Shown here piece after piece: positions 20,559 through 49,889 of a DNA stretch of 64,000 bases. The position numbers and the translations under genes were made by a program. Source of the DNA: a virus; IMG/VR virus record IMGVR_UViG_3300020469_003886, positions 28,103 to 92,102 of that record; one strand, 5' to 3'. The notes under the pieces are model-generated. The model had not been told where the DNA came from, ran no database searches, and was given only the letters and a program-made list of their open reading frames with translations. Each line of letters begins with the position of its first letter. Position 1 is the stretch's first letter.

Positions 20559-20559
20559 A

Positions 20560-21645: not shown

Positions 21646-21647
21646 TA

Positions 21648-23661: not shown

Positions 23662-23678
23662 TTTAAATATTTACCTTC

Positions 23679-26541: not shown

Positions 26542-26725
26542 GAGGAAATGAATAAATTCCTAATATTTCTATGTCTGGGTGTGCTAGTTTAATTAGAACA
26601 AATTGCTCATCTGTTACAGCAATAATATTATCTGCATGATTAGGAATATATGTTCTTGGTAAACTTTTGTCTTTTGCTAACCGATTGTGTTTAGTTTGGT
26701 CTGTATATCCAACTAAGGTGTACAC
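26525..26725 (-). CDS. Hypothetical protein, 66 aa, GTG start
   Basis: GTG start overlaps the clpP TAG stop (TAGTG). Small soluble protein, no motif. Its 3' end overlaps the operon promoter 26513-26541. Confidence 0.6.
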   Translation of the reverse strand: MYTLVGYTDQTKHNRLAKDKSLPRTYIPNHADNIIAVTDEQFVLIKLAHPDIEILGIYSFPLDYFK

Positions 26726-27306
26726 TACCTTTTTTCAACAATTTTATCAATTAGACCAAATTCTAATGCTTGATCTGGATTCATGTAATTATCACGTTCC
26801 ATTGCATCTTCAACTGTTTTAAGATCTTTGCCACAGTGTTTTACATACAAATCATTTAATCTTTTCTTTGTGTCTAAAATGTCTTTTGCATGAATTTCAA
26901 TATCTGTTGCTTGTCCTTGGAATCCTGCTGATGGTTGGTGTATCATTATTTTTGAATTTGGTAATGATATCCTTTTGCCGGCTGTACCTGCCATTAATAA
27001 TAATGATCCTGCACTTGCTGATAAGCCAATACTTACTGTTGAAATATCTGGTTGTACATATTGCATAGTATCATACATTGCCAATCCTGCTGTTACAGAA
27101 CCGCCTGGCGAATTAATATACATGTAGATATCCTTATCTTTAGATTCAGATTCTAAAAACAATAACTGAGCACAAACCAAACTTGATGTTGCATCATTTA
27201 TTGGACCAGTAATAAAAATAATTCTTTCTTTTAATAAACGTGAAAAAATATCATAACTTCTTTCACCTCTTGACGATTGTTCAACAACCATTGGTACTAG
27301 ATTCAT
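26725..27306 (-). CDS. clpP: ClpP protease subunit
   Basis: Serine protease chambers of the Clp system. The catalytic triad is visible: SASAGS for Ser, KIMIHQP for His, and ERDNYMNPD for Asp; NSPGGSV is the substrate-binding strand. I choose ATG 27306 (MNLVPMVV), 6 nt after AAGGAG; ATGs at 27312 and 27333 are closer to or before that site. At 193 aa it equals the mature bacterial protein. Together with clpX (36289) and clpS (31026), the phage carries parts of a full Clp machine. Confidence 0.96.
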
Positions 27307-27316
27307 ATTCATCTCC

Positions 27317-28813
27317 TTAGACATTAAATTCAACTCCTTGTGCTAATGGCAAGTCTGTTGAGTAATTTACCGTTACTGTGCTTCTACGCATGTATTGTTT
27401 CCATGCATCTGAACCACTTTCTCTTCCACCTCCAGTGTGTTTTTCACCACCAAAGGCGCCGCCAATTTCAGCCCCACTAGGACCAATATTAACATTTACA
27501 ATACCACAATCAGATCCATTTGCTCCAATAAACAATTCTGCTTCTTGTAAATCTTTTGTAAAGATACAACTGCTTAAACCTTGTGGTACGTTATTGTTAA
27601 TTGCTATTGCTTCTGCTAGTTCATCATATGGCATGATGTAAAGCAATGGTGCAAAAGTTTCTGTTTTTGTAATTTCTTCTGCTTTAGTTAATTCAACTAT
27701 TGCTGGTGTTACATATACCCCATCACGTTCTAATTTTGTTCCGCCAGTAACAGTTCCAATACCTTGTTGCTCACATTGTGCCATTGTGTCTTTCATATTT
27801 TCATATGCTTGTTCACTAACCAAAGGTCCTACTAATGTGTTGCTGTCTAAAGGATCACCAACTGTAATTTTTGCGTAATATTTTTTAAGAATTTTTACCA
27901 ACTGTTCGTGAATTGATCTATGCACAATAACTCTACGTAATGTTGTACATCTTTGACCTGCTGTACCTACTGCACTAAACAATATAGCTCTAATTGCCAA
28001 CTTCATATCTGCATTTGGTGTAACTATCATTGCATTGTTGCCACCAAGTTCCATCAGCACTCTACCAAATCTTTCAGTAACTTGTTTACCTAATGTTTGC
28101 CCCATTGCTGTTGATCCTGTTAGTGAAACAAGATTAATATGTTTATCATTTGCTAACCATTCTGCAGGTTCGTTAGCACCTACAACAAGTTCTAATATGT
28201 TTTGTGCTTGGGGTATGCCAGAACGTTCAACTGCTTTTTTAAATATTGCCTCACAAGCATAAGATACCAAAGGTGTCTTAGGTGACGGCTTCCAAAGTGT
28301 TGTGTTACCACACACTGTTGCAATAGCAAAGTTCCAACTCCACACTGCTACAGGAAAGTTAAATGCTGAAACAACTCCAACTACTCCTAATGGATTCCAC
28401 ATCTCTTGCATACGGTGTCCTGGTCTTTCACTTGGCATTGTTAATCCGTATAACTGTCTTGATAATCCAACTGCGAAATCGCAGATATCTATCATTTCTT
28501 GTACTTCACCTAAACCTTCTTGAAATATTTTACCGTTTTCGATAGTAACTAATTTCCCAAGTTCGTTTTTGTGCTTACGAAGTTCTTCACCAAACAATCT
28601 AATTACTTCACCTCTTTGTGGTGCTGGAATTGTTCTCCATTCTATTTGTGCTTGTTTTAAATTTAGTACCTTTGCTTCATACTCTTGTTTAGTAGTATGT
28701 TTTACTGTGGCAATTTCAGTAGCATCGATTGGGGATACTACTGAGTTGCCATTTGGTACTGTATATAAGTTTTGATCTACGCCTATAGATTCTAATATTT
28801 GTTTTACATTCAT
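27317..28813 (-). CDS. Aldehyde dehydrogenase, ALDH7 (aminoadipate-semialdehyde type)
   Basis: NAD-dependent aldehyde oxidation. Visible: [15 protein letters not shown], general-base ELGGNN, catalytic Cys in [12 protein letters not shown], and the ALDH7-typical [18 protein letters not shown]-like stretch ([18 protein letters not shown]) near the end. Full length (498 aa). ALDH7 members act on aminoadipate semialdehyde from lysine breakdown and related aldehydes; the phage substrate is unknown. It leads directly into clpP with the SD between. Confidence 0.93.
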
Positions 28814-29145: not shown

Positions 29146-29454
29146 TTAAATTCCTAATGCTAATCTGGCCTCTTCACTCATCATATCTTGAGAAAAAGGT
29201 GGATCAAATGTTGTTTCAATAAAACAGGAATCAACTCCTTCAACATCCATAGCCGCATGTTTGATATCTGCTACAATTTGGTCTGCCGCTGGACAAAATG
29301 CTGATGTTAATGTATGTGTGATACAAGCCTTTGGTAGTTCTGATAGATCAATATTATATATCAATCCAAGATCATAAATGTTGATAGATATTTCAGGATC
29401 ATACACTTCACGTAAGTTTTCAATAATTTTTTCTTTTGTTTGGTCTGGGGTCAT
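29146..29454 (-). CDS. SufT/MIP18-like Fe-S assembly factor (DUF59)
   Basis: The DUF59 pattern DPEISINIYDLGLIYNI and a later TSAFCPAAD, where the family has a conserved Cys, are both present. 102 aa is the usual length. Members help insert or mature Fe-S clusters. ATG overlaps the Nfu stop by 4 nt, an operon with clear functional logic. Confidence 0.9.
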   Translation of the reverse strand: MTPDQTKEKIIENLREVYDPEISINIYDLGLIYNIDLSELPKACITHTLTSAFCPAADQIVADIKHAAMDVEGVDSCFIETTFDPPFSQDMMSEEARLALGI

Positions 29455-30020
29455 ACTGCTTCAACTGTATGTACTTCTGAGATGTAATGTTTTAACATAT
29501 TTTCAATGCCCATTTTGAGAGTTGCTGTCGAGCTCGGACAGCCTGAACAAGCACCATACATTTCTAAATACACAGTTCCATTTTCAAAACTGTGAAAAAT
29601 AATATCTCCGCCATCCATTGCTACTGCTGGTCTTACACGTTCATCAAGTAGTTGGACTATTTTTTTTGTGATTTTATCTGTACCTGCATCATCATTAATT
29701 GTTTCACAAGCAGGTTTTGTTTCTTCAACAATAAATGGTCCTTCACTGTGATATCTAATTGTTTCTGTAATATCGCTTTTGATATCTTCCCATTCTACTG
29801 TGTCGTCTTTACCTACTGTAATAAAGTCTGACCCAAAAAATACATCTTGTATTCCATTTATTTTAAACAGTGCGTATGCCACAGGAGCATCTGCAGATGG
29901 ATTACCTTCAGGATCTTTTTTATAAAAAAGTGGTGTTTTGTTGCCTCTGACATCTACGTTAGGTAAGAATTTTAAAGCATTTGGATTTGGGGTTAATTCT
30001 GTTTGTATCATCATTTCCAT
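29451..30020 (-). CDS. Nfu-type Fe-S cluster scaffold/carrier
   Basis: N-terminal Nfu_N-like domain (TELTPNPNALKFLP) and C-terminal NifU-like domain with YGACSGCPSSTATLK, the CxxC that binds a 4Fe-4S cluster. 189 aa, full length. It should deliver clusters to apoproteins; the phage's own radical SAM enzymes and ferredoxin are obvious clients. Promoter 30028-30055 leaves 7 nt between -10 and ATG. Confidence 0.93.
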   Translation of the reverse strand: MEMMIQTELTPNPNALKFLPNVDVRGNKTPLFYKKDPEGNPSADAPVAYALFKINGIQDVFFGSDFITVGKDDTVEWEDIKSDITETIRYHSEGPFIVEETKPACETINDDAGTDKITKKIVQLLDERVRPAVAMDGGDIIFHSFENGTVYLEMYGACSGCPSSTATLKMGIENMLKHYISEVHTVEAV

Positions 30021-30058: not shown

Positions 30059-31024
30059 TTATTTTAATTTTGATTCAAATTCTCTCAAACGTTTGTATAC
30101 ACTTGCAAGTTCAATAATAGTAGGCCATGCTTTTAATAGATATTGCATTGATCCTTCAACTCTTCCAAATGCTCTTATGATTTGTTGCATCACACCAAGT
30201 GTAACAACACCTGCTACAATGGCTGGTGCTAAAAATACATAAGCACTTAAAACGTTTGCTTGTAAATATGCCATACGTCCTACGTTAAAATACAAATAAC
30301 GTACATAACTTTTAAAGTGAATACTACGAACATCTGCAAACAGTTCATCAATTTTTTTTGGTCTTACATTTCCATCGTCTTCTGCAATAACTAATATTTT
30401 TCTGTATGCCGCTTCTTGTTTTTGAAGATCATATTCTACACCAACTAGTCGTAATACCCAACCTAGTCCTATTAAAAATATTGTTCCACCAAGTGTCCAA
30501 ACTAATGCACCTGTAATTAATCCATATTGCCAATCACCAAAAAAGAAAATTGGTATTCCAATTGATAATCCAAACAGTATAGGTATAAATTGTATTAATA
30601 TCATTACTGCTTCAATTAGACTTGTGCCTAGTGATTCCATAATACGTGAAAATTTAACTGTGTCTTCTTGTACCCTTTGTGATGCACCTTCTATTTTTCG
30701 TGCTTTGTCATAAACACTGTGATACCACTCAACCATTGCTGTTCTCCAACGGAATAAAAAATGTGCTGTAAAGAAACTTATTAAAACATAAAGTCCAACA
30801 TACATACCTGCTAAAGTAATAAAAGAAAGAAGGCTTGCAAAATACTCTTCGATTGTAATTGCATTTGGTTCTGCAAGTGCTTTTTGTATCATATCATAAA
30901 AAACACCAAACCATTCGTTAATTTTTACGTCAATTTCTACTTGGACCCACAATGAAGATAAAATAATTGCTGATCCGAGCCATGCCCACAATAACCACTT
31001 TCTGGTTGTAAAGAATCTAAACAT
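30059..31024 (-). CDS. SbmA/BacA-family inner-membrane peptide transporter
   Basis: Several membrane helices and the family core FRWRTAMVEWYHSVYDKARKIEG followed by ASQRVQEDTVKFSRIMESLG (split here only for length), which is diagnostic of SbmA/BacA. 321 aa, slightly shorter than E. coli SbmA (about 400 aa). Family members import proline-rich peptides, microcins and similar cargo using the proton gradient. A phage copy could import something or protect the host envelope. 2 nt gap to clpS upstream. Confidence 0.88.
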   Translation of the reverse strand: MFRFFTTRKWLLWAWLGSAIILSSLWVQVEIDVKINEWFGVFYDMIQKALAEPNAITIEEYFASLLSFITLAGMYVGLYVLISFFTAHFLFRWRTAMVEWYHSVYDKARKIEGASQRVQEDTVKFSRIMESLGTSLIEAVMILIQFIPILFGLSIGIPIFFFGDWQYGLITGALVWTLGGTIFLIGLGWVLRLVGVEYDLQKQEAAYRKILVIAEDDGNVRPKKIDELFADVRSIHFKSYVRYLYFNVGRMAYLQANVLSAYVFLAPAIVAGVVTLGVMQQIIRAFGRVEGSMQYLLKAWPTIIELASVYKRLREFESKLK

Positions 31025-31025
31025 A

Positions 31026-31337
31026 CTAGGCTTTTTCTACTGTACAGTTCAATGGATGACCTTGCGATCTAGCCTGTGCTGTAGTTTCAATTGCTTTTTG
31101 TTCTGCAATTTCGTGTGTGAATGTTCCGGCAACACCTTTGCCTTCTTCGTGAATCTGCATCATTACTGCTTCAGCGTCTTTTGGAGATTTTCTAAAAATT
31201 GTTTTTAAAATTTCTGTAACAAAATCCATTGGTGTGTAATCATCATTCAACAAATACACATTAAACATACTAGGCTCATCTATTGTTGTCTTTGTACTTG
31301 TTGACGCTTGTACGTTTGCATTTCCTTGTTCTGTCAT
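31026..31337 (-). CDS. clpS: ClpS adaptor (N-end rule)
   Basis: NVYLLNDDYTPMDFVTEIL and HEEGKGVAGTFTHEIAE are the ClpS signatures, including the acidic pocket and GxAG-like loop for N-degrons. 103 aa, as in bacteria. It normally feeds ClpAP, but no ClpA is in this window; it may redirect host ClpA or work with the phage enzymes. Confidence 0.94.
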   Translation of the reverse strand: MTEQGNANVQASTSTKTTIDEPSMFNVYLLNDDYTPMDFVTEILKTIFRKSPKDAEAVMMQIHEEGKGVAGTFTHEIAEQKAIETTAQARSQGHPLNCTVEKA

Positions 31338-31346: not shown

Positions 31347-31913
31347 TTATTGTATTTTATCTATTATTATTGCATCTGGCATGATATAAGGAACATATTC
31401 TTGTCTATCTTCTCTATCGTTACCTTGATGAACTTCCATTTGCTCTTTACCTTGATCTTCTTTAATCAAATTAATTGGCATTGGTTGTCCTTTTCTCATT
31501 TCTTCCATTTTTGCAACTTGTTCATGCATTTCTCTATTGTATTGTATAACATAAACACGAGGTTGTCTACCATTAATTGTGTATGCTACAATATCTACCC
31601 AAGATTTTCCTTTTACATCCTTATTGTTGTCTATCAACCAAAGATATATTGCACCAGATCCTGGTTCTTTTATTTCTGGTTCTTCAACAAACGACCCAAT
31701 CATTATATATTTTTCGTTGTTTGGCCAATCATGATATGGATATCCATACATTGTTTTTAATCCTATCCAAGCACTAAGAATTGAAAACAATACTAATGTA
31801 GTAAGTGTGGCTTTTAAATACCATTTTGTTGTTGATGATGATATAAATATCCAAAGAACTGTTGCACCAATCAACATTAATAATAAAACTAAAAATACGT
31901 GTCCTTGTATCAT
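31347..31913 (-). CDS. Membrane protein, about 188 aa, of the proton-channel operon
   Basis: Two hydrophobic segments near the N-terminus (GHVFLVLLLMLIGATVLWIF and LKATLTTLVLFSIL), then a soluble C-terminal domain (PGSGAIYLWLID) rich in charge. GGAGGA 5-6 nt before ATG 31913 decides the start over 31952. It follows the ExbB/ExbD-like pair and may be a third component. Confidence 0.68.
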   Translation of the reverse strand: MIQGHVFLVLLLMLIGATVLWIFISSSTTKWYLKATLTTLVLFSILSAWIGLKTMYGYPYHDWPNNEKYIMIGSFVEEPEIKEPGSGAIYLWLIDNNKDVKGKSWVDIVAYTINGRQPRVYVIQYNREMHEQVAKMEEMRKGQPMPINLIKEDQGKEQMEVHQGNDREDRQEYVPYIMPDAIIIDKIQ

Positions 31914-31914
31914 T

Positions 31915-32583
31915 CTATAATCCTCCCGGGCTCCATGCACCAGAGTTTGCATCTACTAATTTTCCAACTATTCCATAATTTAAAGTGTTGAAATTACTGA
32001 CTGAGCCATCTTCATTTACTGTAAACCTTACCACTGTTGTCTCTACACCTTTTCTATCTAAATTTACTTCTCTTGCATACACAACATTATATGGATTTAT
32101 TTTTTCAACTTGTACTTGAATTGGTAAAGGCACATAGTTCTTTTCACCCATTTGCTCTACAGCAATTTTTTTGTTGTACCAATGCACATTAACAATGTAT
32201 TCGCCAGGTACTATACCTCTTATAGTAACCATTTCTTCATTTCTAAAGACAGTAATTATTTCTCCTTTTGGACCGTACACTGTATCATTTGATGTTCCTA
32301 AATCATCTCTACTAAGACTCATTAATCCAACGTCTTTTGATTTAAATCCTACGTAATTTCCCAAAGGATCTCTCATCCATAAGTCAACATCAGACGGTGA
32401 ATCTGATGGCCAATTAATTTTTACAATAAATTCTGCAACCACTTCAACATTTGATTTTTTTGCTACTGGGTTGATTAATATAAATGCCATAACAAACAAA
32501 AATACAAAGCCAACAAGTGTATTGAATAATAGATCTATGAATGCTACCTGTGAACCGTAACTACGATGACGATTGGTTGCCAT
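31915..32583 (-). CDS. ExbD/MotB-like single-helix protein with periplasmic domain
   Basis: One N-terminal helix, AFIDLLFNTLVGFVFLFVMA, with Asp17 at the position where ExbD, TolR and MotB carry their proton-accepting Asp. The rest is a beta-rich domain (WPSDSPSDVDLWMRDP; EYIVNVHWY), not a typical OmpA peptidoglycan domain. Directly after the ExbB-like gene, so a stator pair is likely. Function unknown. Confidence 0.72.
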   Translation of the reverse strand: MATNRHRSYGSQVAFIDLLFNTLVGFVFLFVMAFILINPVAKKSNVEVVAEFIVKINWPSDSPSDVDLWMRDPLGNYVGFKSKDVGLMSLSRDDLGTSNDTVYGPKGEIITVFRNEEMVTIRGIVPGEYIVNVHWYNKKIAVEQMGEKNYVPLPIQVQVEKINPYNVVYAREVNLDRKGVETTVVRFTVNEDGSVSNFNTLNYGIVGKLVDANSGAWSPGGL

Positions 32584-32584
32584 T

Positions 32585-33148
32585 TTAGTTACCTTTCTGC
32601 TCTACAACTCGCTCAACTAATTTTTCTGCTTGTAATGTTCTATAACGTTCTAGATCTTGATCTAATCTAAAGTATTGAACTTTAAGAATTGTACTTGTAA
32701 TCAAACCTGTTAGGGTTGTATATAATGCTGTTGACATGCCAACTGCCATACTTGCTAATGCAGTTTGTACCGATGAAACGTTTGCAATATTAATTCCTGT
32801 AAAAGCACCTGCCAACATGAGAATAAACCCTGCTACTGTTCCTATCAAACCAAGTGTTAGTAGTACATCTGATGCAAACCAACCTGGTTCGTGTCTTGTA
32901 TCTAAATTTTCTAATTTGTGTAACTCGCCATTTGCAAGTTGGCTTAATTTCCAACTTTCATACCCACAATGTAATGTCATTGAATAAAATATAAAAAGAA
33001 TAAAAAATGATAATTTAGTTTTGTCGTTTGTCCATAAATCTTCGTGTACACCAAAACCTACTAAAACAACTGTCAATGCTATAATAAGTGTAAAGAACCA
33101 CCACCATTTAAGAAATATACTGTGTTTAGTTAATGATTTAATTGCCAT
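32585..33148 (-). CDS. ExbB/TolQ/MotA-family proton channel protein
   Basis: Four or so hydrophobic segments (about 13-33, 44-60, 93-118, 128-155). LLTLGLIGTVAGFILML and ALASMAVGMSTALYTTLTG match the pore helices of the MotA/TolQ/ExbB family. 187 aa. Paired with the next gene it would form a proton-driven motor. The gene is led by a terminator plus a late-type promoter (33174-33181). Confidence 0.82.
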   Translation of the reverse strand: MAIKSLTKHSIFLKWWWFFTLIIALTVVLVGFGVHEDLWTNDKTKLSFFILFIFYSMTLHCGYESWKLSQLANGELHKLENLDTRHEPGWFASDVLLTLGLIGTVAGFILMLAGAFTGINIANVSSVQTALASMAVGMSTALYTTLTGLITSTILKVQYFRLDQDLERYRTLQAEKLVERVVEQKGN

Positions 33149-34070: not shown

Positions 34071-34147
34071 TGGCGGGAGTGAAGGGACTCGAACCCTCGG
34101 CCTTCCGCGTGACAGGCGGACGCTCTAACCAACTGAGCTACACCCCC
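34071..34147 (-). tRNA. tRNA-Asp (GTC), CCA encoded
   Basis: Acceptor GGGGGTG/CACTCCC, anticodon loop CTGTCAC, T-arm GAGGGTTCGAGTCCCTT, discriminator G, CCA at 34071-34073. Two nt separate it from tRNA-Val. Confidence 0.96.
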
Positions 34148-34149
34148 AA

Positions 34150-34225
34150 TGGTGGGTAATACAGGACTCGAACCTATGACCCTCTCGGTGTAAACGAGAT
34201 GCTCTACCAACTGAGCTAATCACCC
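34150..34225 (-). tRNA. tRNA-Val (TAC), CCA encoded
   Basis: Acceptor GGGTGAT/ATTACCC, anticodon loop TTTACAC, T-arm ATAGGTTCGAGTCCTGT, discriminator A, CCA at 34150-34152. Its first 10 nt are also the end of speD, including the TAG stop. Confidence 0.96.
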
Positions 34226-34596
34226 TTGATGTCAATTTCTGTTAATCCTCGTTCTCTATTTAAATACTTATATTCAACCTTGGTAGGATCAAATTGTTTA
34301 ATTTCTTCAAATATTATATCTGTAGGTAAATCACCACAAGTATAGACATCAAGTTGTAATAACCCAGGATCTGTTTCATCCCAACAATGCAATGCTATGT
34401 GAGAAGTTTCAATAATTACTAAACCAGTTAAGCCCCTGTTACCTGGCATATCTAAATATGTTGTAATAGGACCTTGACATATTTGCATACCAATTTTAGA
34501 TACTAAATCTGTTAACCAAGTGTGAGCCCACTTCTGATTAGTAGGTGGCTTATTAACTTCGGCTCTTACTATTAGATGTTTGTGTTGTACCGTCAT
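34216..34596 (-). CDS. speD: S-adenosylmethionine decarboxylase (SpeD-like)
   Basis: Makes decarboxylated SAM for spermidine synthesis; matures by self-cleavage to a pyruvoyl enzyme. The site TSHIALHCWDE (Ser65) matches the bacterial SHISIHTWPE motif, though the residue before Ser is Thr instead of the usual Glu. LDVYTCGDL is also typical. 126 aa, normal for the short bacterial type. It overlaps nadE by 44 nt and its stop lies inside tRNA-Val. The MTA made downstream would be handled by the nucleosidase at 45780. Confidence 0.9.
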   Translation of the reverse strand: MTVQHKHLIVRAEVNKPPTNQKWAHTWLTDLVSKIGMQICQGPITTYLDMPGNRGLTGLVIIETSHIALHCWDETDPGLLQLDVYTCGDLPTDIIFEEIKQFDPTKVEYKYLNRERGLTEIDIKGD

Positions 34597-35338
34597 TTTT
34601 AAATACTGGGATTGGTTCCATTTTATGTAAATTCATACTTCTTATTTGACGATATTTATTCAACAACTCCACGTCACTGCCTATTGCAATAGCACCTTTT
34701 TCATCTAGTTCCATTGCTCGTTCCATTTGATCATACGTAAGACCTCCAAGTTGGTCTTTGTCTGTTCTTCCATCTTCCCACAAACCATCTGTTGGTGGTG
34801 CATCAATAATTTCTTGCATAATTCCTAAGTCTTTTCCTAATTGCCAAACTTCTGATTTCATTAAGTCTGCTAATGGAGATATATCAACACCGCCATCTCC
34901 ATATTTTGTGTAAAAACCTACGCCAAAGTCTTCTACTTTATTACCTGTACCTACAACAATTCCTTGTTTAGCACCTGATATATGATGTAGTGTCATCATT
35001 CTAAGTCTTGCTTTTGTATTTGCAAATGCATGTTCACTGCCGTAATCATTAAATGTATCTAACCAAAATCGTTCATACGTTCTGTTCAAATCAATTACTT
35101 CATGTGTCACATTATTGAACTTTTGTTCTAACCAGGATCCATGTTCCATACTTAAATCATGTTGTGATTCGATTTGATTTATTGGCATAGAAACTGCAAT
35201 AGTTTTCATTCTAGTCATAGCACACAATGTACTAACCACTGACGAATCAATACCGCCTGAAATTCCTACAACTAATGTTTTACGATTATTTTCGTTAGCA
35301 TATCTTTTTATCCATTTAGAAATTTTGTCTTGCAACAT
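34553..35338 (-). CDS. nadE: NAD+ synthetase (NadE), NH3- or Gln-dependent
   Basis: Amidates nicotinate adenine dinucleotide to NAD. The PP-loop VGISGGIDSSVV and NKVEDFGVGFYTKYGDGGVDI, then PPTDGLWEDGRTDKDQ are clear. 261 aa fits the NH3-dependent form with no glutaminase domain. A small gap separates it from bS21. With the NMNAT-like fusion (1-1346) and PRPP synthetase it suggests NAD supply during infection. Confidence 0.92.
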   Translation of the reverse strand: MLQDKISKWIKRYANENNRKTLVVGISGGIDSSVVSTLCAMTRMKTIAVSMPINQIESQHDLSMEHGSWLEQKFNNVTHEVIDLNRTYERFWLDTFNDYGSEHAFANTKARLRMMTLHHISGAKQGIVVGTGNKVEDFGVGFYTKYGDGGVDISPLADLMKSEVWQLGKDLGIMQEIIDAPPTDGLWEDGRTDKDQLGGLTYDQMERAMELDEKGAIAIGSDVELLNKYRQIRSMNLHKMEPIPVFKNDGTTQTSNSKSRS

Positions 35339-35344: not shown

Positions 35345-35701
35345 TTAACTCCTTCTTGATTTTTTCTTTGGAGAGATACCAAACTCAGCCGCTTCTGCTT
35401 CTTTTCTCAATTTATGAGCTCTTCTTACTGCACGTTTTTTATCTTCACGTTTTACAAAAGACGGTTTCATGTAATATCTTCTATCACGAAGCTCTTGCAT
35501 AACACCTTCTTTTAACAACATTTTTTTAAGTTTACGCATGGCTTTTTCAACGTTGTTATCAACAACTGCAACTGCCATTCCTGGTAACTTAGGTGGACGT
35601 GGTCTTTTTTCTTTATTGTCTCTACCGTCTTTTTTGTTATAGCCTATGTCAAAAGACTTAACATCATATTTTTGTCTAGGTTTTCCTGTTTTCATATTCA
35701 T
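35345..35701 (-). CDS. rpsU: Ribosomal protein bS21 homologue with long extensions
   Basis: Residues about 50-95 read as bS21: NVEKAMRKLKKMLLKEGV, then QELRDRRYYMKPSFVKRE and a basic tail. Bacterial bS21 is about 70 aa; here about 48 residues precede the domain, so the N-terminus is unusual. bS21 lies near the anti-Shine-Dalgarno helix and aids initiation; phage copies are known, and a swap could favour phage mRNAs. Own promoter 35711-35738. Downstream of infC and clpX. Confidence 0.9.
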   Translation of the reverse strand: MNMKTGKPRQKYDVKSFDIGYNKKDGRDNKEKRPRPPKLPGMAVAVVDNNVEKAMRKLKKMLLKEGVMQELRDRRYYMKPSFVKREDKKRAVRRAHKLRKEAEAAEFGISPKKKSRRS

Positions 35702-35710
35702 AATACTCTT

Positions 35711-35738
35711 ATATTAACATCTTTATAATATTTGTCAA
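35711..35738 (-). promoter_or_regulatory. Sigma70-type promoter for bS21-nadE-speD-tRNA transcript
   Basis: TTGACA (35733-35738), 16 nt, TGT plus TAATAT (35711-35716), 9 nt to the first ATG. Overlaps the IF-3 stop. Confidence 0.68.
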
Positions 35739-36289
35739 CTCTTTTTTGCATCTGCGTCTTTACAAATGACTGCTATAATTCTGTTTCCGGCTTGTTTTGG
35801 TGGTGAATCATATTTGGTTTGCTCTAATTTTTTAACCATCATATTAATTTGATCAATAAACATTTTGCCGTTAGGTATTTCCCTACCTCGCAACCTCATA
35901 ACTATTTTTACTTTATCGCCATCATCAATAAATTCTTGTGCTTTTTTAAGTTTCACATTTAAATCATGCACATCAATATTTGGCCTAAATTGTAATTCAC
36001 GCAATTCGACTCTGTTTTGTCTTTCAAGTTTTTTCTTCTGTTTGTCTTTTTTTTGTTTTTCGTAATTCCATTTACCAAAATCTTGTATTTTACACACAGG
36101 CGGATTTGCTTTTACAGTTGTACAAATTAAATCTAATCCAAATTCCTTGGCTTTAGAAAGTGCAGTTTTACTATCAACTATTCCTATAAATGCTCCATTA
36201 GGATCAATTAACCTAATTTTAGGAAAAGTAATTGCTGTGTTTAATAGCACACTTGGTTGAGAAAACTTATTGCGAAATGGTTTTTTCAC
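35735..36289 (-). CDS. infC: Translation initiation factor IF-3
   Basis: Full two-domain IF-3 (184 aa): N-domain PKIRLIDPNGAFIGIVDSK, basic linker, and C-domain with VRELQFRP-like VELRELQFRPNID and KVKIVMRLRGREI. IF-3 splits ribosomes and proofreads the start codon and initiator tRNA. GTG start overlaps the clpX stop by one base. With bS21 directly after and uL11 nearby, it suggests that the phage changes host initiation. It may explain tolerance of leaderless starts, an inference. Confidence 0.94.
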   Translation of the reverse strand: MKKPFRNKFSQPSVLLNTAITFPKIRLIDPNGAFIGIVDSKTALSKAKEFGLDLICTTVKANPPVCKIQDFGKWNYEKQKKDKQKKKLERQNRVELRELQFRPNIDVHDLNVKLKKAQEFIDDGDKVKIVMRLRGREIPNGKMFIDQINMMVKKLEQTKYDSPPKQAGNRIIAVICKDADAKKS

Positions 36290-37548
36290 TATGCTCCGTT
36301 TTTCTCTTCTTTAGTTCTATACATTAACATTGGTTGTGTTTCTTCTGTAATCACTTTGTCGTTGATAATAATTTTTTCAACATCTTGTGATTTTAATGTT
36401 GGTAATTCATATTGTAGTTGTAACAATATTTTTTCAAGTACAGAACGTAATCCTCTAGCACCAATTTCTTTTTCAAGTGCTAGTTTGGCTACACAGTCAA
36501 TTGCTTCTTTGGTAAATTCTAATTTAACACCATCTAACTTAAACATTTTTTCAAACTGTTTTAGTACAGCATTTTTTGGTTTGATTAAAACTTTCTTCAG
36601 ATCATCATGTGTTAGATTATGACAAGCAACCACTACAGGTAACCTACCTACCATTTCAGGTATTAATCCAAATTTAACAACATCATCTGGCTGTACTTTT
36701 GTAAGTATTTGATCTGTTTGTTCTTGTGATTCAAAGTTAGACATGAACCCCATAGACGTGTTTACGTTTAACCTACGTTTAACAATTTCATCTAAACCAA
36801 CAAATGCTCCGCCACACACAAACAATATATTTTTTGTATCAACTTCAATCATTTCTTGTTGTGGATGTTTTCTTCCACCTGCGGGTGGAACTCTTACTAT
36901 TGTACCTTCAAGTAATTTTAACAGTGCTTGTTGTACACCTTCACCTGATACATCTCTTGTGATTGATGTGTTTTCTGACTTACGTGATTTTTTGTCAACT
37001 TCATCTATATACACAATACCTCGTTGGGCACGATCAACGTCAAAATCACAACTTTGTAACAGTCTTAAAATAATGTTTTCAACATCGTCGCCAACATAAC
37101 CACTTTCAGTTAATGTTGTGGCATCTGCTTGAGCAAATGGTACGTCTAAATAATCTGCAATTTTTTGTGCCAATAATGTTTTACCACAACCACTTGGGCC
37201 AACTAATAATACATTTGATTTTTCTAATTCAACTCCATCAACAACAGGATTATTTAATCTTTTATAATGGTTATAAACAGCAACCGATAAAACTTTTTTT
37301 GCTTGGCTTTGTCCAATGACATGCCCGTCTAGATGTTTTTTTAATTCATCTGGAACAATTGTTTTTAATTCTTCACTTTGTGTACTGTTCTCTGCTTTTT
37401 GTAAATCATTTTCTTCTAATATAGAGTGACACAATTCTACACATTCGTTACATATATATACTTTAGGTCCTGCAATAAGTTTTCTTACTTTTGCTCTTTC
37501 CTTGCCACAGAATGAACAACAATAAGCATCATCTTTTTTCTTTACCAT
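36289..37548 (-). CDS. clpX: ClpX unfoldase ATPase
   Basis: Zinc-binding domain with C-x2-C (11/14, 33/36), Walker A GPSGCGKT (117-124), pore loop GYVGD, Walker B IDEVD, and EIGARGLRS sensor region. 419 aa, full length. The ClpP-contact loop has MGF where bacterial ClpX has IGF, so docking to ClpP may differ. With the phage's own ClpP it could form a phage ClpXP. AAGGA before the ATG lies in the -1-frame extension upstream, suggesting coupling. Confidence 0.96.
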
Positions 37549-37893
37549 TTAATCCTTCTTGTCTATTTTACCAACATAAGGTTTAATCCAACCAACTGAT
37601 TTTGGTTTATCTTTTGATTGTTTTAAACTGTCGGCTTTCATTGTTTTATTTATAATAACACGATTTGCGTCAATGTCAATCTCTTTTTTGATTTCTTTTA
37701 GATTAACATTAACATCTTCTCGAAACTTCATTATTACTTCTGGCCTACCAAGAAGTTGATTAACTTCAACTTGTTGTTTAGGTTTGATTTCAATTTCTTC
37801 AACTTTTATTTGATTGTTTTTAGGTTGTTCTTGCTTTGGAAGTTTAACTTTATCTTGAATGGATAAATTTATGCTATCCTTTGTCGTCAGTCT
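37549..37893 (-). CDS. -1-frame extension of the coiled-coil membrane protein (114 codons, no start codon in first 54)
   Basis: In the -1 frame from the nine-A run at 37893-37901, the frame is open to TAA at 37549 with coding-like composition (KVEEIEIKPK, QLLGRPEV, VGWIKPYVGK). There is no ATG, GTG or TTG until ATG 37731, so the first 54 codons can only be used by ribosomes that slip at the A run. A separate 60-aa gene from 37731 is possible. Its stop abuts the clpX start. Confidence 0.6.
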   Translation of the reverse strand, partial: RLTTKDSINLSIQDKVKLPKQEQPKNNQIKVEEIEIKPKQQVEVNQLLGRPEVIMKFREDVNVNLKEIKKEIDIDANRVIINKTMKADSLKQSKDKPKSVGWIKPYVGKIDKKD

Positions 37894-39248
37894 TTTTTTT
37901 TCTTAACTTGATCGCCTGGTTTAACATTAATTGTTTCATCAATATTGATTACTGTTTTGTTTGGTTTTTCTTCTAAACTTTTTTGATAATCTAATTGCTC
38001 TTGAAGTTCTTCTTTTGTTTCTGAAAGTTTTTCACGAAACTCATTTAATTCTTTTTCATGTCTTTTTTTTAGATCTTTAACTTCATTCTGTTTTTGATCT
38101 GGACCACTATATTTTTTAACTAAATCAGGATCATACTGTTTTTCAAATCCTCTTCCAAAACGTCTAATAAGTGACATGTTGGCCGCAATTAAAAGCAAGA
38201 CAGCAAGTGGATCAAACACAACTATAATGATAATAATTACCCAACGCACTGCCGCTTCTAATAAGTTTTGATTTGCTTCTTGACCATATACAAATTCTGC
38301 AATGTATTTTAATGGACCAACTTCAACTTCCAACTGTGCTTGTTTACTCATCAACACAATTTTATCTTCGTTAACTTGATCAATTTTATCTTGTTCTGCT
38401 TCAATTTGGTCTTCTAGTGCAATAATTTTACCTTCTATATCACCTGTCTTTGTGTTTGCTTGACTTTTGTAATTATTAATAATTTTTTCAATACTTGTAA
38501 TTTGGTCTACATATTTGGCATCAACACCAGCAAGATCTTCTTTTAATTTATTTTGTATTTTAACTATAAGTTTTTGTGCCGCTGATGCTACTGATAGTTC
38601 ATTTGCTGTTGCTTTTGCTATTGCTTCATCTAAACCTTTTTTGCTAAATGCACCTTTAAAACGTTCTTGTGCCGCGGCTATGTCAGCCTCTTTACGTTCT
38701 TGTGCTTGTTTTAATCTGTTGTTTTGTAGTTCAATATCTTTGTCTGCTTGATCTCTTAATGCTTGTTTTTCAACATCGATACGTGCATACAGTTTGTCTA
38801 GCTCTACTTGTTCTTTGTCAATTAATATATCAACTCTAACATCTTCACCAGAGACAAGTCTTTCAATATCAGATGACCAACGATCTATTCTGTTTTCAGA
38901 ACGTAATAACTTTTCTTCAATGGTTGCTAATTTTTCTGTGCCAATTGTACCTAGTGATGTTTGCTCAACGTGTGCTTTTGATAAGAAACCAAATATACCC
39001 ATTGACGTAATAAACATCAATACCACAACTGCTATCGATAGATATGCTTTTATAAACTTTGGTGCTACTTTCCAGTTTTGGTACAACCATGAGGCTGTCA
39101 CAAGTTTTCCAACTTCTAATACAGATCCCATCACCATGATTGGTATGGCCGCACCTGCAAAGATAGCCGCCAAGCCTAGTATGGAGTAGTATATTGCAAC
39201 TGCCGAAATACTCAAAGCAGTCAATAATGTTAATATTGCCATAAACAT
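37887..39248 (-). CDS. Membrane protein with long coiled coil, 453 aa
   Basis: About three hydrophobic segments in residues 1-90, a coiled coil of about 220 residues (110-330, Lys/Glu/Gln rich with heptads), then another hydrophobic segment (VIIIIIVVFDPLAVLLLIA, about 335-355) and a charged tail. Ends KKKKD then TGA, next to nine A. The pattern resembles coil-containing membrane proteins found in T4-like marine phages. Start at 39248 or 39242. A late-type box CATAAATA lies 8 nt upstream. Confidence 0.75.
   Translation of the reverse strand: MFMAILTLLTALSISAVAIYYSILGLAAIFAGAAIPIMVMGSVLEVGKLVTASWLYQNWKVAPKFIKAYLSIAVVVLMFITSMGIFGFLSKAHVEQTSLGTIGTEKLATIEEKLLRSENRIDRWSSDIERLVSGEDVRVDILIDKEQVELDKLYARIDVEKQALRDQADKDIELQNNRLKQAQERKEADIAAAQERFKGAFSKKGLDEAIAKATANELSVASAAQKLIVKIQNKLKEDLAGVDAKYVDQITSIEKIINNYKSQANTKTGDIEGKIIALEDQIEAEQDKIDQVNEDKIVLMSKQAQLEVEVGPLKYIAEFVYGQEANQNLLEAAVRWVIIIIIVVFDPLAVLLLIAANMSLIRRFGRGFEKQYDPDLVKKYSGPDQKQNEVKDLKKRHEKELNEFREKLSETKEELQEQLDYQKSLEEKPNKTVINIDETINVKPGDQVKKKKD
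37893..37904 (-). other. Slippery run AAG plus nine A before an in-frame stop
   Basis: Zero-frame codons AAG AAA AAA AAA GAC TGA. A -1 slip on A AAA AAA joins to AGA CTG ACG and then 112 open codons. Either programmed frameshifting or a miscalled homopolymer. Confidence 0.6.
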
Positions 39249-39256
39249 AACAATAT

Positions 39257-39264
39257 TATTTATG
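39257..39264 (-). promoter_or_regulatory. Late-type box CATAAATA
   Basis: 8 nt before ATG 39248. Confidence 0.45.
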
Positions 39265-39280
39265 TAAAAAAACGGTGGTT

Positions 39281-39733
39281 TTATTCAATGCTGTAGATTG
39301 CACTGTTGGCTCCATGCTCTGCACATTCAACACTTACAACATAACAACGATTGTCTGTTGCTTCTCTTATAAGCCCATCTGCATATTCAAAGGCATGTTG
39401 AGCAAACTTTTCTGCACCAACACCATCAAATAATCTAACTTCTGCAAGGTCTTTGTCTTGCAGTTCCATGAACGTTGATAAGTGTGGATCATTTTTGTCT
39501 AAACAAAGTTTGTGATCAAAATGATCTTCAAGCCATTTTTTCAAAGGTTTTAGTCCACCAAAGTCAACTGCCCAATTTTTATTATCAAGATCTGTACATC
39601 CAAAAGTAAATTTAAATGCTAAACTATATCCATGTAATAAGTGACAGTGAGAATGGTCTGCGTTAGGTTGTCTGAACACTGCTGATAAGCCAATGTTGTG
39701 TCCGTATGTTTTTGTACTATAATGTTTTGCCAT
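39281..39733 (-). CDS. 6-pyruvoyl-tetrahydropterin synthase / QueD-like enzyme
   Basis: ADHSHCHLLHGYSLAFKF holds the family's Cys and His region; NWAVDFGGLK and DHFDHKLCL are also typical. One difference: the usual HGH reads HGY, so zinc ligation may be unlike classic QueD. QueD makes 6-carboxy-tetrahydropterin, early in queuosine synthesis and in phage 7-deazaguanine DNA modification, but no QueE, QueC or FolE is in the window. AGGAGG precedes the ATG in a structured leader of about 80 nt. Confidence 0.82.
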   Translation of the reverse strand: MAKHYSTKTYGHNIGLSAVFRQPNADHSHCHLLHGYSLAFKFTFGCTDLDNKNWAVDFGGLKPLKKWLEDHFDHKLCLDKNDPHLSTFMELQDKDLAEVRLFDGVGAEKFAQHAFEYADGLIREATDNRCYVVSVECAEHGANSAIYSIE

Positions 39734-39798
39734 AATGGCCTCCTATTTCTAACGGCAGAGTGTTTAGTGAGGGTTGACGTTTAGTCCTCAAATGCAAA

Positions 39799-39839
39799 AT
39801 GCGTTGTAGCATATTGTTATAATACACTAAACAACGCAT
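39799..39839 (-). promoter_or_regulatory. 9-bp inverted repeat around the queD-like promoter -10
   Basis: ATGCGTTGT (39799-39807) and ACAACGCAT (39831-39839), perfect 9-bp arms, 23-bp gap. One arm lies in the promoter spacer, the other just after the expected +1, as for a repressor operator. Confidence 0.5.
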
Positions 39840-39847
39840 CTTGTCAA
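39819..39847 (-). promoter_or_regulatory. Sigma70-type promoter of the queD-like gene
   Basis: TTGACA (39842-39847), 17 nt, TATTAT (39819-39824). Confidence 0.72.
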
Positions 39848-39852
39848 GAAGA

Positions 39853-40056
39853 TTACTTATGTGGGTCAAAATCTTTAGTTATTTTAGATTCTTTACCCTT
39901 AAAGTAGTGTTTTGATGGTTCGTAGGATAACCACCTTTTAAAACTCTTCACCTGATCCGACTGGTCGGCTGGTTCTCGCAATGATCTTCGCTGTTTACTA
40001 AACACAGCACCGAACATTAAGATCCCGTCGCCCATGGATCTAAATATCTTTTCCAT
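39853..40056 (-). CDS. Hypothetical basic protein, 67 aa
   Basis: Soluble, basic, has FSKQRRSLREPADQS and FKRWLSYEPS. GGAGA precedes the ATG by 8 nt. Leader of about 100 nt before it has no gene. Unknown. Confidence 0.62.
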   Translation of the reverse strand: MEKIFRSMGDGILMFGAVFSKQRRSLREPADQSDQVKSFKRWLSYEPSKHYFKGKESKITKDFDPHK

Positions 40057-40160
40057 AGACTGTCTCCAAATTATTGTTAATGGGATCGCTTACCGTCTTT
40101 TGATGTGATCTGAGGCGTTGGGCTTTCTACCAAATGTACTTATATTTTTTTCTCAAAAGA

Positions 40161-40175
40161 AGCCTATAATAGGCT
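40161..40175 (-). terminator. Hairpin terminator after the DUF3563 gene
   Basis: AGCCTA/TAGGCT 6-bp stem with 3-nt loop, followed by TCTTTTG. 6 nt after the TAA at 40182. Confidence 0.6.
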
Positions 40176-40181
40176 GGTTTC

Positions 40182-40352
40182 TTAAAGATAAAATCTGTTG
40201 TACAATGAACGGAAACTTCCTCCGTTAAATTGACGTCTATCTAACTCACGTTGACGTCTTTCTAAGTCAGCGAGATCATTTGCTTTTGACAAATATACTT
40301 CTTCCTGTGTCATTGATAGTTTACGTAACCAATTTTTTACTGCTTTAATCAT
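40182..40352 (-). CDS. DUF3563-family small protein, 56 aa
   Basis: EEVYLSKANDLADLERRQREL is the DUF3563 signature found in proteobacteria. N-terminus basic (IKAVKNWLRKL). Overlaps the upstream TGA (ATGA). Function unknown; family members are short and often unannotated. Confidence 0.75.
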   Translation of the reverse strand: MIKAVKNWLRKLSMTQEEVYLSKANDLADLERRQRELDRRQFNGGSFRSLYNRFYL

Positions 40353-40501
40353 TTAACTTTTTTTCCTCTTTTCAACATTTGGTAAGCATACAGTGGGTCG
40401 TTTCTAAATTCTGTTACTGCATACTGCCACAATGGGTCTGCTGTGTTACTGTGCATTGGAGCACTTGTTAGGCTACTCCAAAGTTCTTTTAAATATTTCA
40501 T
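40349..40501 (-). CDS. Small protein upstream of DUF3563, 50 aa
   Basis: ATG 40501 overlaps the upstream stop by one base; TGA overlaps the next ATG. Contains MKYLKELWSSL...DPLWQYAVTEFRNDP and a basic end. Often paired with the DUF3563 gene here by coupling; family unknown. Confidence 0.65.
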   Translation of the reverse strand: MKYLKELWSSLTSAPMHSNTADPLWQYAVTEFRNDPLYAYQMLKRGKKVK

Positions 40502-40557
40502 TACCTGTTCTTTCTCTTACTGATCCAATCGATCTCTTCTTCTGTATAAGGCCACAT
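40501..40557 (-). CDS. Tiny peptide, 18 aa
   Basis: ATG 40557 with AGAGGAG 8-10 nt upstream. Sequence MWPYTEEEIDWISKRKNR. Its stop overlaps the next ATG. The good ribosome binding site is the reason to list it. Confidence 0.45.
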   Translation of the reverse strand: MWPYTEEEIDWISKRKNR

Positions 40558-40619
40558 TGCCTATTCTCCTCTGTCATTAATGATAGATTATATGATATGT
40601 GTGGTATCACTACCAAACA

Positions 40620-40627
40620 TATTTATA
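40620..40627 (-). promoter_or_regulatory. Perfect late promoter box TATAAATA
   Basis: Just after the sigma70-type promoter 40631-40658, upstream of the small-gene trio. Confidence 0.5.
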
Positions 40628-40630
40628 GTT

Positions 40631-40658
40631 AATATAACACAAAAAATAGGATTTACAA
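40631..40658 (-). promoter_or_regulatory. Sigma70-type promoter for the DUF3563 cluster
   Basis: TTGTAA (40653-40658), 16 nt, TATATT (40631-40636), with TTGTGT before it as in the dexA promoter. A 10-codon frame opening with ATG 40620 may be a leader peptide. Confidence 0.65.
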
Positions 40659-40730
40659 CTGTTTTTAACGCAAAGCAGATATGCGATTTTGCTATAGCAA
40701 GTTGCTTGTTACTATGCAGTTTTGTTATGT
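40659..40730 (-). other. Spacer with palindromes after uL11
   Basis: Contains TTGCTATAGCAA (12-nt palindrome) and GCAAA/TTTGC pairs that may form a weak terminator for the uL11 transcript. No gene. Confidence 0.35.
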
Positions 40731-41153
40731 CTACTCTTTTATAGATATACTCATAGAACGACACGATCCTTCTACCTGAGCCATTGCTTGTTCTATAGTA
40801 AAAGCATTCATGTCTTCCATTTTTTCTTCTGCAATTTTTTTAATTTGTTCTCTAGTAATATACTTAATTGTTCCTCGACCAGGTGTTTTACCACCTTTTT
40901 TAAGACCAACTGCTTTTAGTATAAAATAGGTAACGGGTGGTTTTTTAAGAACAAATGTAAAGCTCTTGTCTTTATAAACTGTGATTAGGCAGGGTATAGG
41001 TCCTTCTAGGGCTTTTGTCTTGTCATTAAAGCTCTTACAAAAGTCCATGATGTTAACACCACGTTGGCCAAGAGCTGGTCCAACTGGTGGGGCTGGTTTA
41101 GCCTGTCCTGCCTCTATGATTAACTTTAGAGTACCAGTTACTTCTTTCGCCAT
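40731..41153 (-). CDS. rplK: Ribosomal protein uL11 homologue
   Basis: 140 aa, full length. N-domain has AKPAPPVGPALGQRGVNIMDFC (split: PPVGPALGQRG and VNIMDFCK), the thiostrepton-site proline region, and C-domain KTPGRGTIKYIT with EQAMAQVEGSCRSMSI binding 23S rRNA. uL11 forms the stalk base used by factors and RelA. AGG-rich SD (TTGGAGG) lies before the ATG. Next to Csp, Smr and nuclease genes. Phage-encoded uL11 is rare to my knowledge. Confidence 0.96.
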   Translation of the reverse strand: MAKEVTGTLKLIIEAGQAKPAPPVGPALGQRGVNIMDFCKSFNDKTKALEGPIPCLITVYKDKSFTFVLKKPPVTYFILKAVGLKKGGKTPGRGTIKYITREQIKKIAEEKMEDMNAFTIEQAMAQVEGSCRSMSISIKE

Positions 41154-41172: not shown

Positions 41173-41427
41173 TTATGCTGATTCAGTATTTGATTCAGCA
41201 GGTTGTTCGTCACTAGTTGCTTCAGCAATTACTTTTAATTGTGTTGCAACAGGCTTACCTTTGTGTTCAGCAACAACAAATTCCATTGCTTGACCTTGAT
41301 CTACTTTCGTAATGTTTGCTTCTTTAAATGCAGAAACATGTACGAAAACATCGTTACCGCCTTCATCTGGTACTATGAATCCAAAACCTTTTGCCGCATT
41401 GTACCATTTTAATTTACCTGTACTCAT
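41173..41427 (-). CDS. Cold-shock domain protein (CspA-like)
   Basis: GKLKWYNAAKGFGFIVPDEGG and DVFVHVSAF give the RNP1 and RNP2 RNA-binding motifs. 84 aa, with an acidic C-terminal tail beyond the 67-aa core. Binds single-stranded RNA or DNA, likely as an RNA chaperone. Overlaps smr by 4 nt. Confidence 0.95.
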   Translation of the reverse strand: MSTGKLKWYNAAKGFGFIVPDEGGNDVFVHVSAFKEANITKVDQGQAMEFVVAEHKGKPVATQLKVIAEATSDEQPAESNTESA

Positions 41428-41657
41428 CTGTACTCCTTATTATAGTATACTCTGTAAGCACCGTTTGTAGGCAGTAGCTCACAATTTTTTAAACTGTCGT
41501 TGGCTTCAACCCACAGTTCAAATTCTTCTTTGATCTTACCTTGTCCTGTAATAACAGTAACATACTTAAGACCTTGATGCTTGTTTTCGTGTACAAACTT
41601 TGTGAACACTCTCCAAGCGTCTTGTACATAATAACCGTGTAAATCTATTCTCGCCAT
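41424..41657 (-). CDS. Smr-domain nuclease, 77 aa
   Basis: RIDLHGYYVQDAWRVF and VTVITGQGKIKEEF are the DLHG and TGxG motifs of Smr domains. Stand-alone Smr proteins of bacteria cut mRNA at collided ribosomes; the phage copy lies in a row with uL11 and Csp. Late box TATAAATA is 13 nt upstream. Confidence 0.9.
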   Translation of the reverse strand: MARIDLHGYYVQDAWRVFTKFVHENKHQGLKYVTVITGQGKIKEEFELWVEANDSLKNCELLPTNGAYRVYYNKEYR

Positions 41658-41670: not shown

Positions 41671-41678
41671 TATTTATA
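41671..41678 (-). promoter_or_regulatory. Perfect T4-late box TATAAATA before smr
   Basis: 13 nt before ATG 41657; may drive smr, csp and uL11 late. Confidence 0.6.
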
Positions 41679-48788: not shown

Positions 48789-49889
48789 TTATAGTTCAAA
48801 GTTTTCAAATGTTTTGTCGTCAACGTCTTGTTTTAGTCCGCCAATTACATAACTTTCAACTTCTGTTTCTTGTGGAGCAACCTGTAGTCCAGCACTCGAT
48901 AACCAGTGTGCTGTCCATGGTAACGGATTTGCGTTAGCAGGTTGATCATAAATTGGATCATATCCAATTGCTTTTAATCTTTTGTTTGCAATCCACTCTA
49001 CATAATCGCCTAACAATTTTTCATTAAGTCCAATGATAGAACCATCTTTAAATAAATGTTTTGCCCATGCTTTTTCTTCTTCAACACAGTCTTTAAACAT
49101 TTTGATAACTGTTTTATCTAAACCTTTAATTGCTTTGATCATTTGTTTGTCATCACCTTTGTGCCAATTTTTAATGACCTGTGTAGACAAGTTTAAGTGT
49201 GTTGCTTCATCACGTGCAATGAGTGAAATGATTTTTGCTGAGCCTTCCATAAGTTTAAGCTCGCCAAATGCAAATGTACAAGCAAATGATACATAAAATC
49301 TTAAACCTTCTAAAATATTTACGTTAATCATTGCAAGATATAATTGTTTTTTAACATCAAGTATATCGCCTTCATTTTTAACAAAATAGTTTTCAGCCAT
49401 TTTAGAAAATGTATCATAATTTTCTGTAACTGATATTGCACGTTTTAAAATTTCTTCATCATTTAAAATTGTGTCAAATACTTCTGATGGATCTGAATAC
49501 ACATTTTTCATAATATGTGTATATGAACGTGAATGAATTGTTTCAAAAAAGTCCCAAGTAACAATACAGCCTTCTAGTTCAGGATTTGAAACATAAGGTA
49601 AAAAGGCCAAACTTGGACCTCTACCCTGTACTGAATCTAGCAGTGTTTGATACTTTAAGTTTGATGTAAAAATATGCTTTTGTTCTGGACGGAAGTTTTG
49701 AAAATCTGAACGATCTTTCTGTAATGAAACTTCTTCTGGTCTCCAAAAATACCCAAGCATAGTTTGGTTAAGTTTATCTAAAGCAGGATATTTAAATATG
49801 TCATATCTCTGCACACTCTGATCTTCTCCAAAGAACATTGGTTCTTTAGTAAAATCTACTTCATTTCTATTGAATACTGTTTTTGCCAT
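48789..49889 (-). CDS. nrdB: Ribonucleotide reductase small subunit (class Ia)
   Basis: Holds the diiron and tyrosyl radical. Visible iron ligands: WDFFETIHSRSY and RDEATHL; FACTFAFGE helix also fits. 366 aa. The C-terminal end (DDKTFENFEL) resembles the NrdA-binding tail. The leaderless sigma70 promoter and a late box precede it. Separated from nrdA by a 2OG oxygenase gene. Confidence 0.95.
   Translation of the reverse strand: MAKTVFNRNEVDFTKEPMFFGEDQSVQRYDIFKYPALDKLNQTMLGYFWRPEEVSLQKDRSDFQNFRPEQKHIFTSNLKYQTLLDSVQGRGPSLAFLPYVSNPELEGCIVTWDFFETIHSRSYTHIMKNVYSDPSEVFDTILNDEEILKRAISVTENYDTFSKMAENYFVKNEGDILDVKKQLYLAMINVNILEGLRFYVSFACTFAFGELKLMEGSAKIISLIARDEATHLNLSTQVIKNWHKGDDKQMIKAIKGLDKTVIKMFKDCVEEEKAWAKHLFKDGSIIGLNEKLLGDYVEWIANKRLKAIGYDPIYDQPANANPLPWTAHWLSSAGLQVAPQETEVESYVIGGLKQDVDDKTFENFEL

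Follow-up and report, generated by a model that had tools for sequence, protein, structure and literature searches.

Several groups of bacteriophages encode parts of the translation machinery. Huge phages carry the initiation factors IF1 and IF3, the ribosomal proteins S1, S4, S21 (with basic N-terminal extensions) and L7/L12, the elongation factors EF-G/Tu/Ts, peptide deformylase and transfer-messenger RNA (tmRNA), and a redirection of host translation has been proposed for them (PMC7162821). The main text of that study does not include uL11, and neither a two-module layout nor promoter classes are described there. The present analysis concerns a 64,000-nucleotide stretch of viral DNA (hereafter the window; bases 28103–92102 of the 92,102-bp IMG/VR record IMGVR_UViG_3300020469_003886), in which the genes for bS21 (rpsU), IF-3 (infC) and uL11 (rplK) lie among the genes of a T4-like phage. 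Taken with related genomes, this locus suggests that the host ribosome is refitted by these phages, beyond mere borrowing.

The Microcystis jumbo phage PhiMa05/MaAM05 (MW495066) resembles the present lineage in encoding several ribosomal proteins, uL11 and bL33 included, but this Saffermanviridae-like cyanophage has a different set (bS1, bL21, bL27, bL33, uL11 and uL1), and its description lists no bS21, IF-3, EF-G or bL12 (PMC13157829). Its uL11 gene lies beside rplA and nusG, and the protein, 49% identical to that of the window, falls elsewhere in the uL11 tree, which does not support a shared origin. With regard to a PhiMa05-type set, E. coli queries gave no match to uL1, bL21 or bL27 in any phage analysed here, the bS1 query being truncated at its 3' end. 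The window's arrangement, with infC immediately downstream of a ClpX-type gene, recurs in Agrobacterium phage Atu_ph07 and Sinorhizobium phage Phosso, whereas the named-phage search gave no uL11 match for them and their IF-3s belong to another phage group, with an arginine at the position of E. coli R168. The Pelagibacter phages HTVC008M and Mosig and the Methylophilales phage Melnitz are T4-like marine phages with bS21, like the window lineage; nevertheless, their bS21 matches are all short, uL11 is absent from them, and the matches listed include no IF-3. In freshwater Bacteroidetes phages, the phage bS21 has been proposed to favour phage transcripts and is expressed late, with the structural genes (PMC9723584), while in the window bS21 has a predicted host-type leaderless promoter and it is uL11 that has the late one. 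Additionally, the methods of ALOHA 2.0 mention one marine viral contig with L11, which was left unanalysed and kept only because L11 neighbours L7/L12 (PMC7174320).

The individual parts are thus not new, since IF-3, bS21, bL12 and EF-G were known from huge phages (PMC7162821) and uL11 from PhiMa05 (PMC13157829). Their combination is another matter: the initial annotation considered uL11, IF-3 and bS21 together to be unusual, and neither a report in the open-access literature nor another contig group with all three was found. Also new, as far as found, are the fixation of uL11 in T4-like marine phages, the co-occurrence of EF-G, uL11 and bL12 in a single phage genome, and the way in which a 30S-initiation module is conserved alongside a 50S GTPase-centre module, together with the promoter layout of the two.

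A conserved gene set in large marine phages

The three genes are intact, lie on the minus strand where they had been annotated and pass the Pfam and NCBIfam equivalog cut-offs. They are rpsU at 35345–35701 (PF01165, E 3.6e-14; TIGR00030, S21p, 59 bits against a cut-off of 29), infC at 35735–36289 (PF05198, 9.6e-23, and PF00707, 4.1e-21; TIGR00168, 155 bits against 60) and rplK at 40731–41153 (PF03946, 9.5e-27, and PF00298, 4.2e-21; TIGR01632, L11_bact, 184 bits against 142). On the same strand, infC overlaps by one base the end of clpX (36289–37548; TIGR00382, 588 bits), the first large gene of a clpX-infC-rpsU unit. Pfam also bears out two companions proposed for the three genes, a CspA-type cold-shock protein that adjoins uL11 (41173–41427, minus strand; PF00313, 8.6e-20) and a small Smr-domain protein (41424–41657, minus strand; PF01713, 2.5e-9).

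Scans of IMG/VR for uL11 and IF-3 yielded 20 and 8 loci, respectively. Both genes occur in five records, namely the window's own (G000), G001 (328 kb), G002 (243 kb), G003 (65.6 kb) and G004 (37 kb), while G009 (38 kb) has IF-3 and bS21 on a contig that stops short of uL11. The order clpX-infC-rpsU is kept in all six of these phages, which are independent IMG/VR assemblies, and the cspA-rplK linkage is kept in G001, G003 and G004. G001 carries an exact 75-bp terminal repeat and is therefore probably a complete circular genome. The window's record is a fragment, so the absence of bL12, EF-G or IF-1 from it is uninformative.

Beyond the translation genes, the same strand of the window encodes the T4-type proteins NrdA, NrdB (closest to those of pelagiphages), PAAR and a DnaB-like helicase, and Pfam finds a prohead protease S77 and a gp25 wedge protein in G001. 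Judged by these T4-type core genes and by the class of the late-promoter motif, the lineage is one of large T4-like marine phages, in keeping with the initial description of the window as phage DNA, and the translation genes are kept in relatives. The ratio of non-synonymous to synonymous rates (dN/dS) among close relatives is 0.07–0.10 for uL11, 0.08–0.10 for IF-3 and 0.10–0.17 for bS21, which resembles the values for NrdB and ClpX; these are estimates, since dS is near saturation. Phylogeny, the check suggested at the outset, places uL11 (100/100) and IF-3 (100/99) in stable phage lineages, although the two trees are short and partly weak. With identical genes in identical order in independently assembled relatives, and with low dN/dS, the gene set is beyond chance.

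Proteins of the initiation site and the GTPase centre

The S21 core of the window bS21 exceeds both family cut-offs and is preceded by an N-terminal extension. Its length had been put at 48 residues and is closer to 41, as the Pfam domain begins at residue 44 and bacterial bS21s align from Met42 of the window protein. The aligned bacterial bS21s lack this extension, which sets the phage protein apart from the cellular type. Among the four closest phages the extension has an omega of 0.12–0.27; it is truly coding, and the start of bS21 is thus not miscalled. Such extensions are a known trait of bS21 in huge phages (PMC7162821). A pelagiphage bS21 enters E. coli ribosomes, as does a phage bL12, and in E. 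coli extracts ribosomes with this bS21 of another phage translate at ~5% of the wild-type level (PMC6375957).

The window IF-3 has both N and C domains and keeps 27 of 30 conserved residues. Among the C-domain contacts (E. coli numbering), R99, K110, R131 and R133 are kept, while R116 is replaced by Glu, R147 by Met and R168 by Asn; the changes at R116 and R168 are found in all six members of the IF-3 clade and also in three other IMG/VR phage IF-3s. R99, R131 and R168 map to the start-codon-facing arginines described in T. thermophilus, where Arg159, the equivalent of R168, is close to both the start codon and the anticodon of the initiator tRNA (PMC5037330). The changes at R116 and R168 could loosen start-site control. 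They are absent from Atu_ph07, Phosso and the E. coli phage 121Q, which have R or K at position 168; they are thus a trait of the lineage, and R168N as a hallmark of every phage IF-3 is rejected. In the tree, the IF-3s of the window clade group with other phage IF-3s, outside those of bacteria. In E. coli, infC is under AUU-type self-repression. This should not apply to the phage gene, which begins with GTG in the window and with ATG in G002. GTG is a start codon without IF-3 discrimination (PMC4611024). As a separate observation, a linkage between Clp and IF-3 genes recurs in jumbo phages, as a ClpX-type gene followed by infC in Atu_ph07 and Phosso and as infC-ClpS in 121Q (L335, L336, L337).

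Of 39 positions that at least 90% of 56 bacterial uL11s have in common, the phage uL11 keeps 38, including the core and the N-terminal proline region (P20, P22, P23 and P26). Pro22 belongs to the proline switch that ties uL11 to EF-G and to the C-terminal domain of bL12, and uL11 is dispensable in E. coli (PMC4592705). Because the conserved residues are retained, Pro22 among them, the phage protein should be a functional replacement. Its tree contains two phage clades, the second of which holds the uL11 of G002 with further T4-like contigs; in G002 the gene is located elsewhere. Both clades group with part of the alphaproteobacterial genomes, mostly small ones, of which the nearest two are AT-rich, and a few Patescibacteria and Omnitrophota sequences join this grouping with modest support. 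A common origin of the uL11s of marine phages as a whole is neither shown nor rejected (approximately unbiased test, p 0.297). No uL11 was found in three other IF-3 phages in which it was sought. In PHROGs v4, bS21 and IF-3 of phages are represented by families and uL11 has no match, which indicates that phage uL11 is little known.

G001 and G002 were also searched with 63 E. coli translation proteins (the IF-2 and bS1 queries were partial, that for bS1 being short at the 3' end), and Pfam was run on most small open reading frames of G001, family findings being those among the matches listed. G001 encodes an EF-G of 689 residues with intact motifs (E 9e-265), flanked by a nuclease gene and by the cold-shock genes ahead of uL11, a slot occupied in the window by Smr. 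Both genomes have bL12 and bL33, G001 has IF-1 and peptide deformylase according to Pfam, and the 242-kb relative (G002) has five of the same proteins. In these relatives the set is larger than was first annotated, and its genes are scattered across the genome. No ribosomal protein beyond those listed was found in G001 with the E. coli queries, a weak L3 match (E 0.004) being disregarded. Furthermore, G001 and G002 carry permuted tmRNAs of the alphaproteobacterial type (RF01849, 132 and 153 bits; L036:14937-15228 and L076:12221-12515, respectively) with the tag ADENLALAA, which has no match among the alphaproteobacterial tmRNA tags read; an SmpB partner was sought in both genomes and not found. 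The G001 EF-G falls inside Alphaproteobacteria (SH-like approximate likelihood ratio test 99; best identities 60–67%), and the uL11 and EF-G trees indicate alphaproteobacterial donors for these genes; together with the tmRNA, they suggest that the host is probably alphaproteobacterial.

Predicted promoters and competing explanations

Two transcription units are predicted, clpX-infC-rpsU with host-type promoters and (smr or fusA)-cspA-rplK with a T4-type late promoter, the promoters being consensus matches whose conservation and placement support them. A sigma70-type element (35711–35738, minus strand; TTGACA-16-TAATAT, 10/12 matches in the scan, with TG before the -10) starts from the end of infC and ends 9 nt before the bS21 ATG. 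Its -35/-10 pattern (TTGACA-16-TA...T) is kept, with varying spacer, in G000, G001, G003, G004 and G009, and a similar element precedes bS21 in G002. Since the -10 ends 6–9 nt before the ATG, the bS21 mRNA is predicted to be leaderless, with transcription starting at or beside the start codon. The same type of element lies upstream of clpX (37652–37679, minus strand; TTGACA-16-TATTAT, 11/12 matches), at 103–104 nt from the gene in G000, G003, G004 and G009, and a similar one is present in G001. Counts of -10 elements 5–9 nt before open reading frames exceed expectation in G001 (10 against 0.35, with a maximum of 4 in 500 random placements), G002 (6 against 0.15) and G000 (4 against 0.14), and many phage mRNAs are predicted to be leaderless from this promoter class in the three genomes. 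In the window, the leaderless-spaced class (TTGACW, 15–18 nt, TAnnnT) includes bS21 (35345–35701) as well as NrdB and a NifU-like protein (48789–49889 and 29451–30020).

The late promoter motif TATAAATA (41671–41678, minus strand) lies 21 nt before smr-cspA-rplK in the window and precedes both EF-G and cspA-uL11 in G001. Of its 10 sites in G000, 6 lie 4–50 nt ahead of starts (random mean 0.58), as do 17 of 25 in G001 (1.24 expected), while six rearranged versions have this position at ~5–19% of their sites in G001. As the promoter types differ between the two units, we infer that the initiation parts are made early and the GTPase-centre parts late.

On balance, it seems moderately probable that this phage lineage encodes functional substitutes for selected translation parts, which would favour phage mRNAs and then renew the GTPase centre. 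Early on, the host RNA polymerase would transcribe clpX-infC-rpsU, and bS21 would additionally be made from its own leaderless transcript, for which Shine-Dalgarno pairing would be unnecessary. At the 30S initiation site, the extended bS21, placed beside the helix of mRNA and anti-Shine-Dalgarno sequence, and phage IF-3 (joined by IF-1 in G001) would then come into play; an action of bS21 and IF-3 at initiation had been claimed from the start and is supported. There they may tip initiation towards the mRNAs of the phage, which include several predicted leaderless ones. Late on, a gp55-type promoter would drive cspA-uL11, and EF-G where present, so that uL11 (with bL12 and EF-G in G001) would renew or replace the exchangeable GTPase-associated centre and elongation would stay fast during the synthesis of virion proteins. 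Incorporation into ribosomes and a preference for phage mRNA are both presumed here. A stronger version, in which early leaderless bS21, IF-3 and IF-1 re-target initiation and a co-evolved uL11-bL12-EF-G set later swaps the GTPase-associated centre, is put forward as a doubtful proposal; if true, it would be the first virus known with a stalk base, a stalk and a translocase that match one another.

Several points weigh against replacement with a preference for phage mRNAs. EF-G is seen in G001 alone and bL12 in no genome but G001 and G002, the contig of the window being a fragment, and motifs resembling Shine-Dalgarno sequences precede ~40–45% of the phage genes. Leaderless mRNAs are usually inhibited by IF-3 (PMC9031893), which fits poorly with IF-3 aiding them unless the changes in the phage IF-3 make it permissive. 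Moreover, the ~5% translation with phage bS21 would fit interference as well as retooling.

Among the alternatives, a plain supply is possible though less probable: the phage would top up translation parts that are short-lived or held loosely on the ribosome (bS21, bL12, bL33, uL11, IF-1, IF-3 and EF-G) during host shut-down, with no preference for phage mRNA. The proteins do resemble working orthologues, the ribosomal ones are chosen largely among those described as exchangeable (PMC6375957), and their companions are also of a housekeeping kind (deformylase, tmRNA, tRNAs and ClpX/ClpP/ClpS). Less in line with such a supply are the lineage-specific extension of bS21, an IF-3 altered at start-codon-facing and rRNA-facing positions, and the predicted separation of early and late control. 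It is unlikely that bS21 and IF-3 instead poison initiation on host mRNAs, an idea to which the poor translation by E. coli ribosomes with pelagiphage bS21 (PMC6375957) and the IF-3 changes at R116, R147 and R168 lend some weight; that result came from a heterologous ribosome, uL11, EF-G, IF-1 and tmRNA serve to keep translation running and not to block it, and purifying selection is strong with active residues conserved.

An escape from the stringent response, in which ribosomes with phage uL11 would fail to activate RelA, was raised by the initial annotation and is highly improbable. RelA activation requires the N-terminal domain of uL11 (PMC4974054) and marine hosts are frequently starved, but this domain is fully conserved in the phage protein, with every conserved N-terminal residue kept (Pro22 and Pro26 included), and the uL11 sequence lends no support to such a function; uL11 also travels with EF-G, bL12 and CspA, and no (p)ppGpp genes were identified alongside. 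Finally, although all the genes are of bacterial descent and contaminated uL11 records exist in the phage database, an artefact is refuted by these data, as synteny across independent assemblies and the circular relative G001 reject a chimeric contig (genes placed singly in bacterial scaffolds were looked for and not seen) and phage-only clades, low dN/dS and synteny exclude unselected passengers.

Neighbouring genes and significance for marine phages

Downstream of bS21 lie, all on the minus strand, the genes for NAD synthase (NadE, 34553–35338; PF02540, 3.2e-48), which adjoins bS21 also in G001, G003, G004 and G009, and for an S-adenosylmethionine decarboxylase-like protein (SpeD, 34216–34596; PF02675, 8.7e-14). 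The same gene block ends in tRNA-Val (TAC) and tRNA-Asp (GTC) (34071–34225; ARAGORN and Rfam). These are the tRNAs nearest to the translation genes, none lying within 35345–41153 itself; ARAGORN finds 5 in the window in total. A QueD-like protein is also among the neighbours. PRPP synthetase, an IMP dehydrogenase/GMP reductase homologue and ClpX, together with ClpP-like and ClpS-like open reading frames recognised by reading their sequences (9151–11150, 26725–27333, 31026–31337 and 36289–37548), would form a broad host-supply set.

Further genes are conserved in the lineage. An SbmA/BacA peptide-uptake transporter (30059–31024, minus strand; PF05992, 454 bits) shares 90–93% identity even with its counterpart in the distant G002, whose proteins are mostly 30–80% alike, possibly owing to recent transfer or very strong constraint. 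Several radical-SAM/SPASM-type proteins (18077–25000 and 58030–59097) are kept in relatives; one protein of the cluster (20560–21645) has no Pfam match and reads like an amidinotransferase, and the product of the cluster may be a modified peptide or a cofactor. At 31347–33148, a MotA/ExbB-type proton channel protein is followed by two membrane proteins without known family, conserved across the lineage.

Phages are usually seen as thieves of ribosomes and not as rebuilders, while this lineage keeps under selection parts for two sites of the ribosome, whose predicted timing differs. If the proteins are incorporated, virus-specialised ribosomes would become directly testable in phages of marine Alphaproteobacteria, and the predicted leaderless early promoter class would offer a testable means by which phage mRNAs may be told from those of the host.

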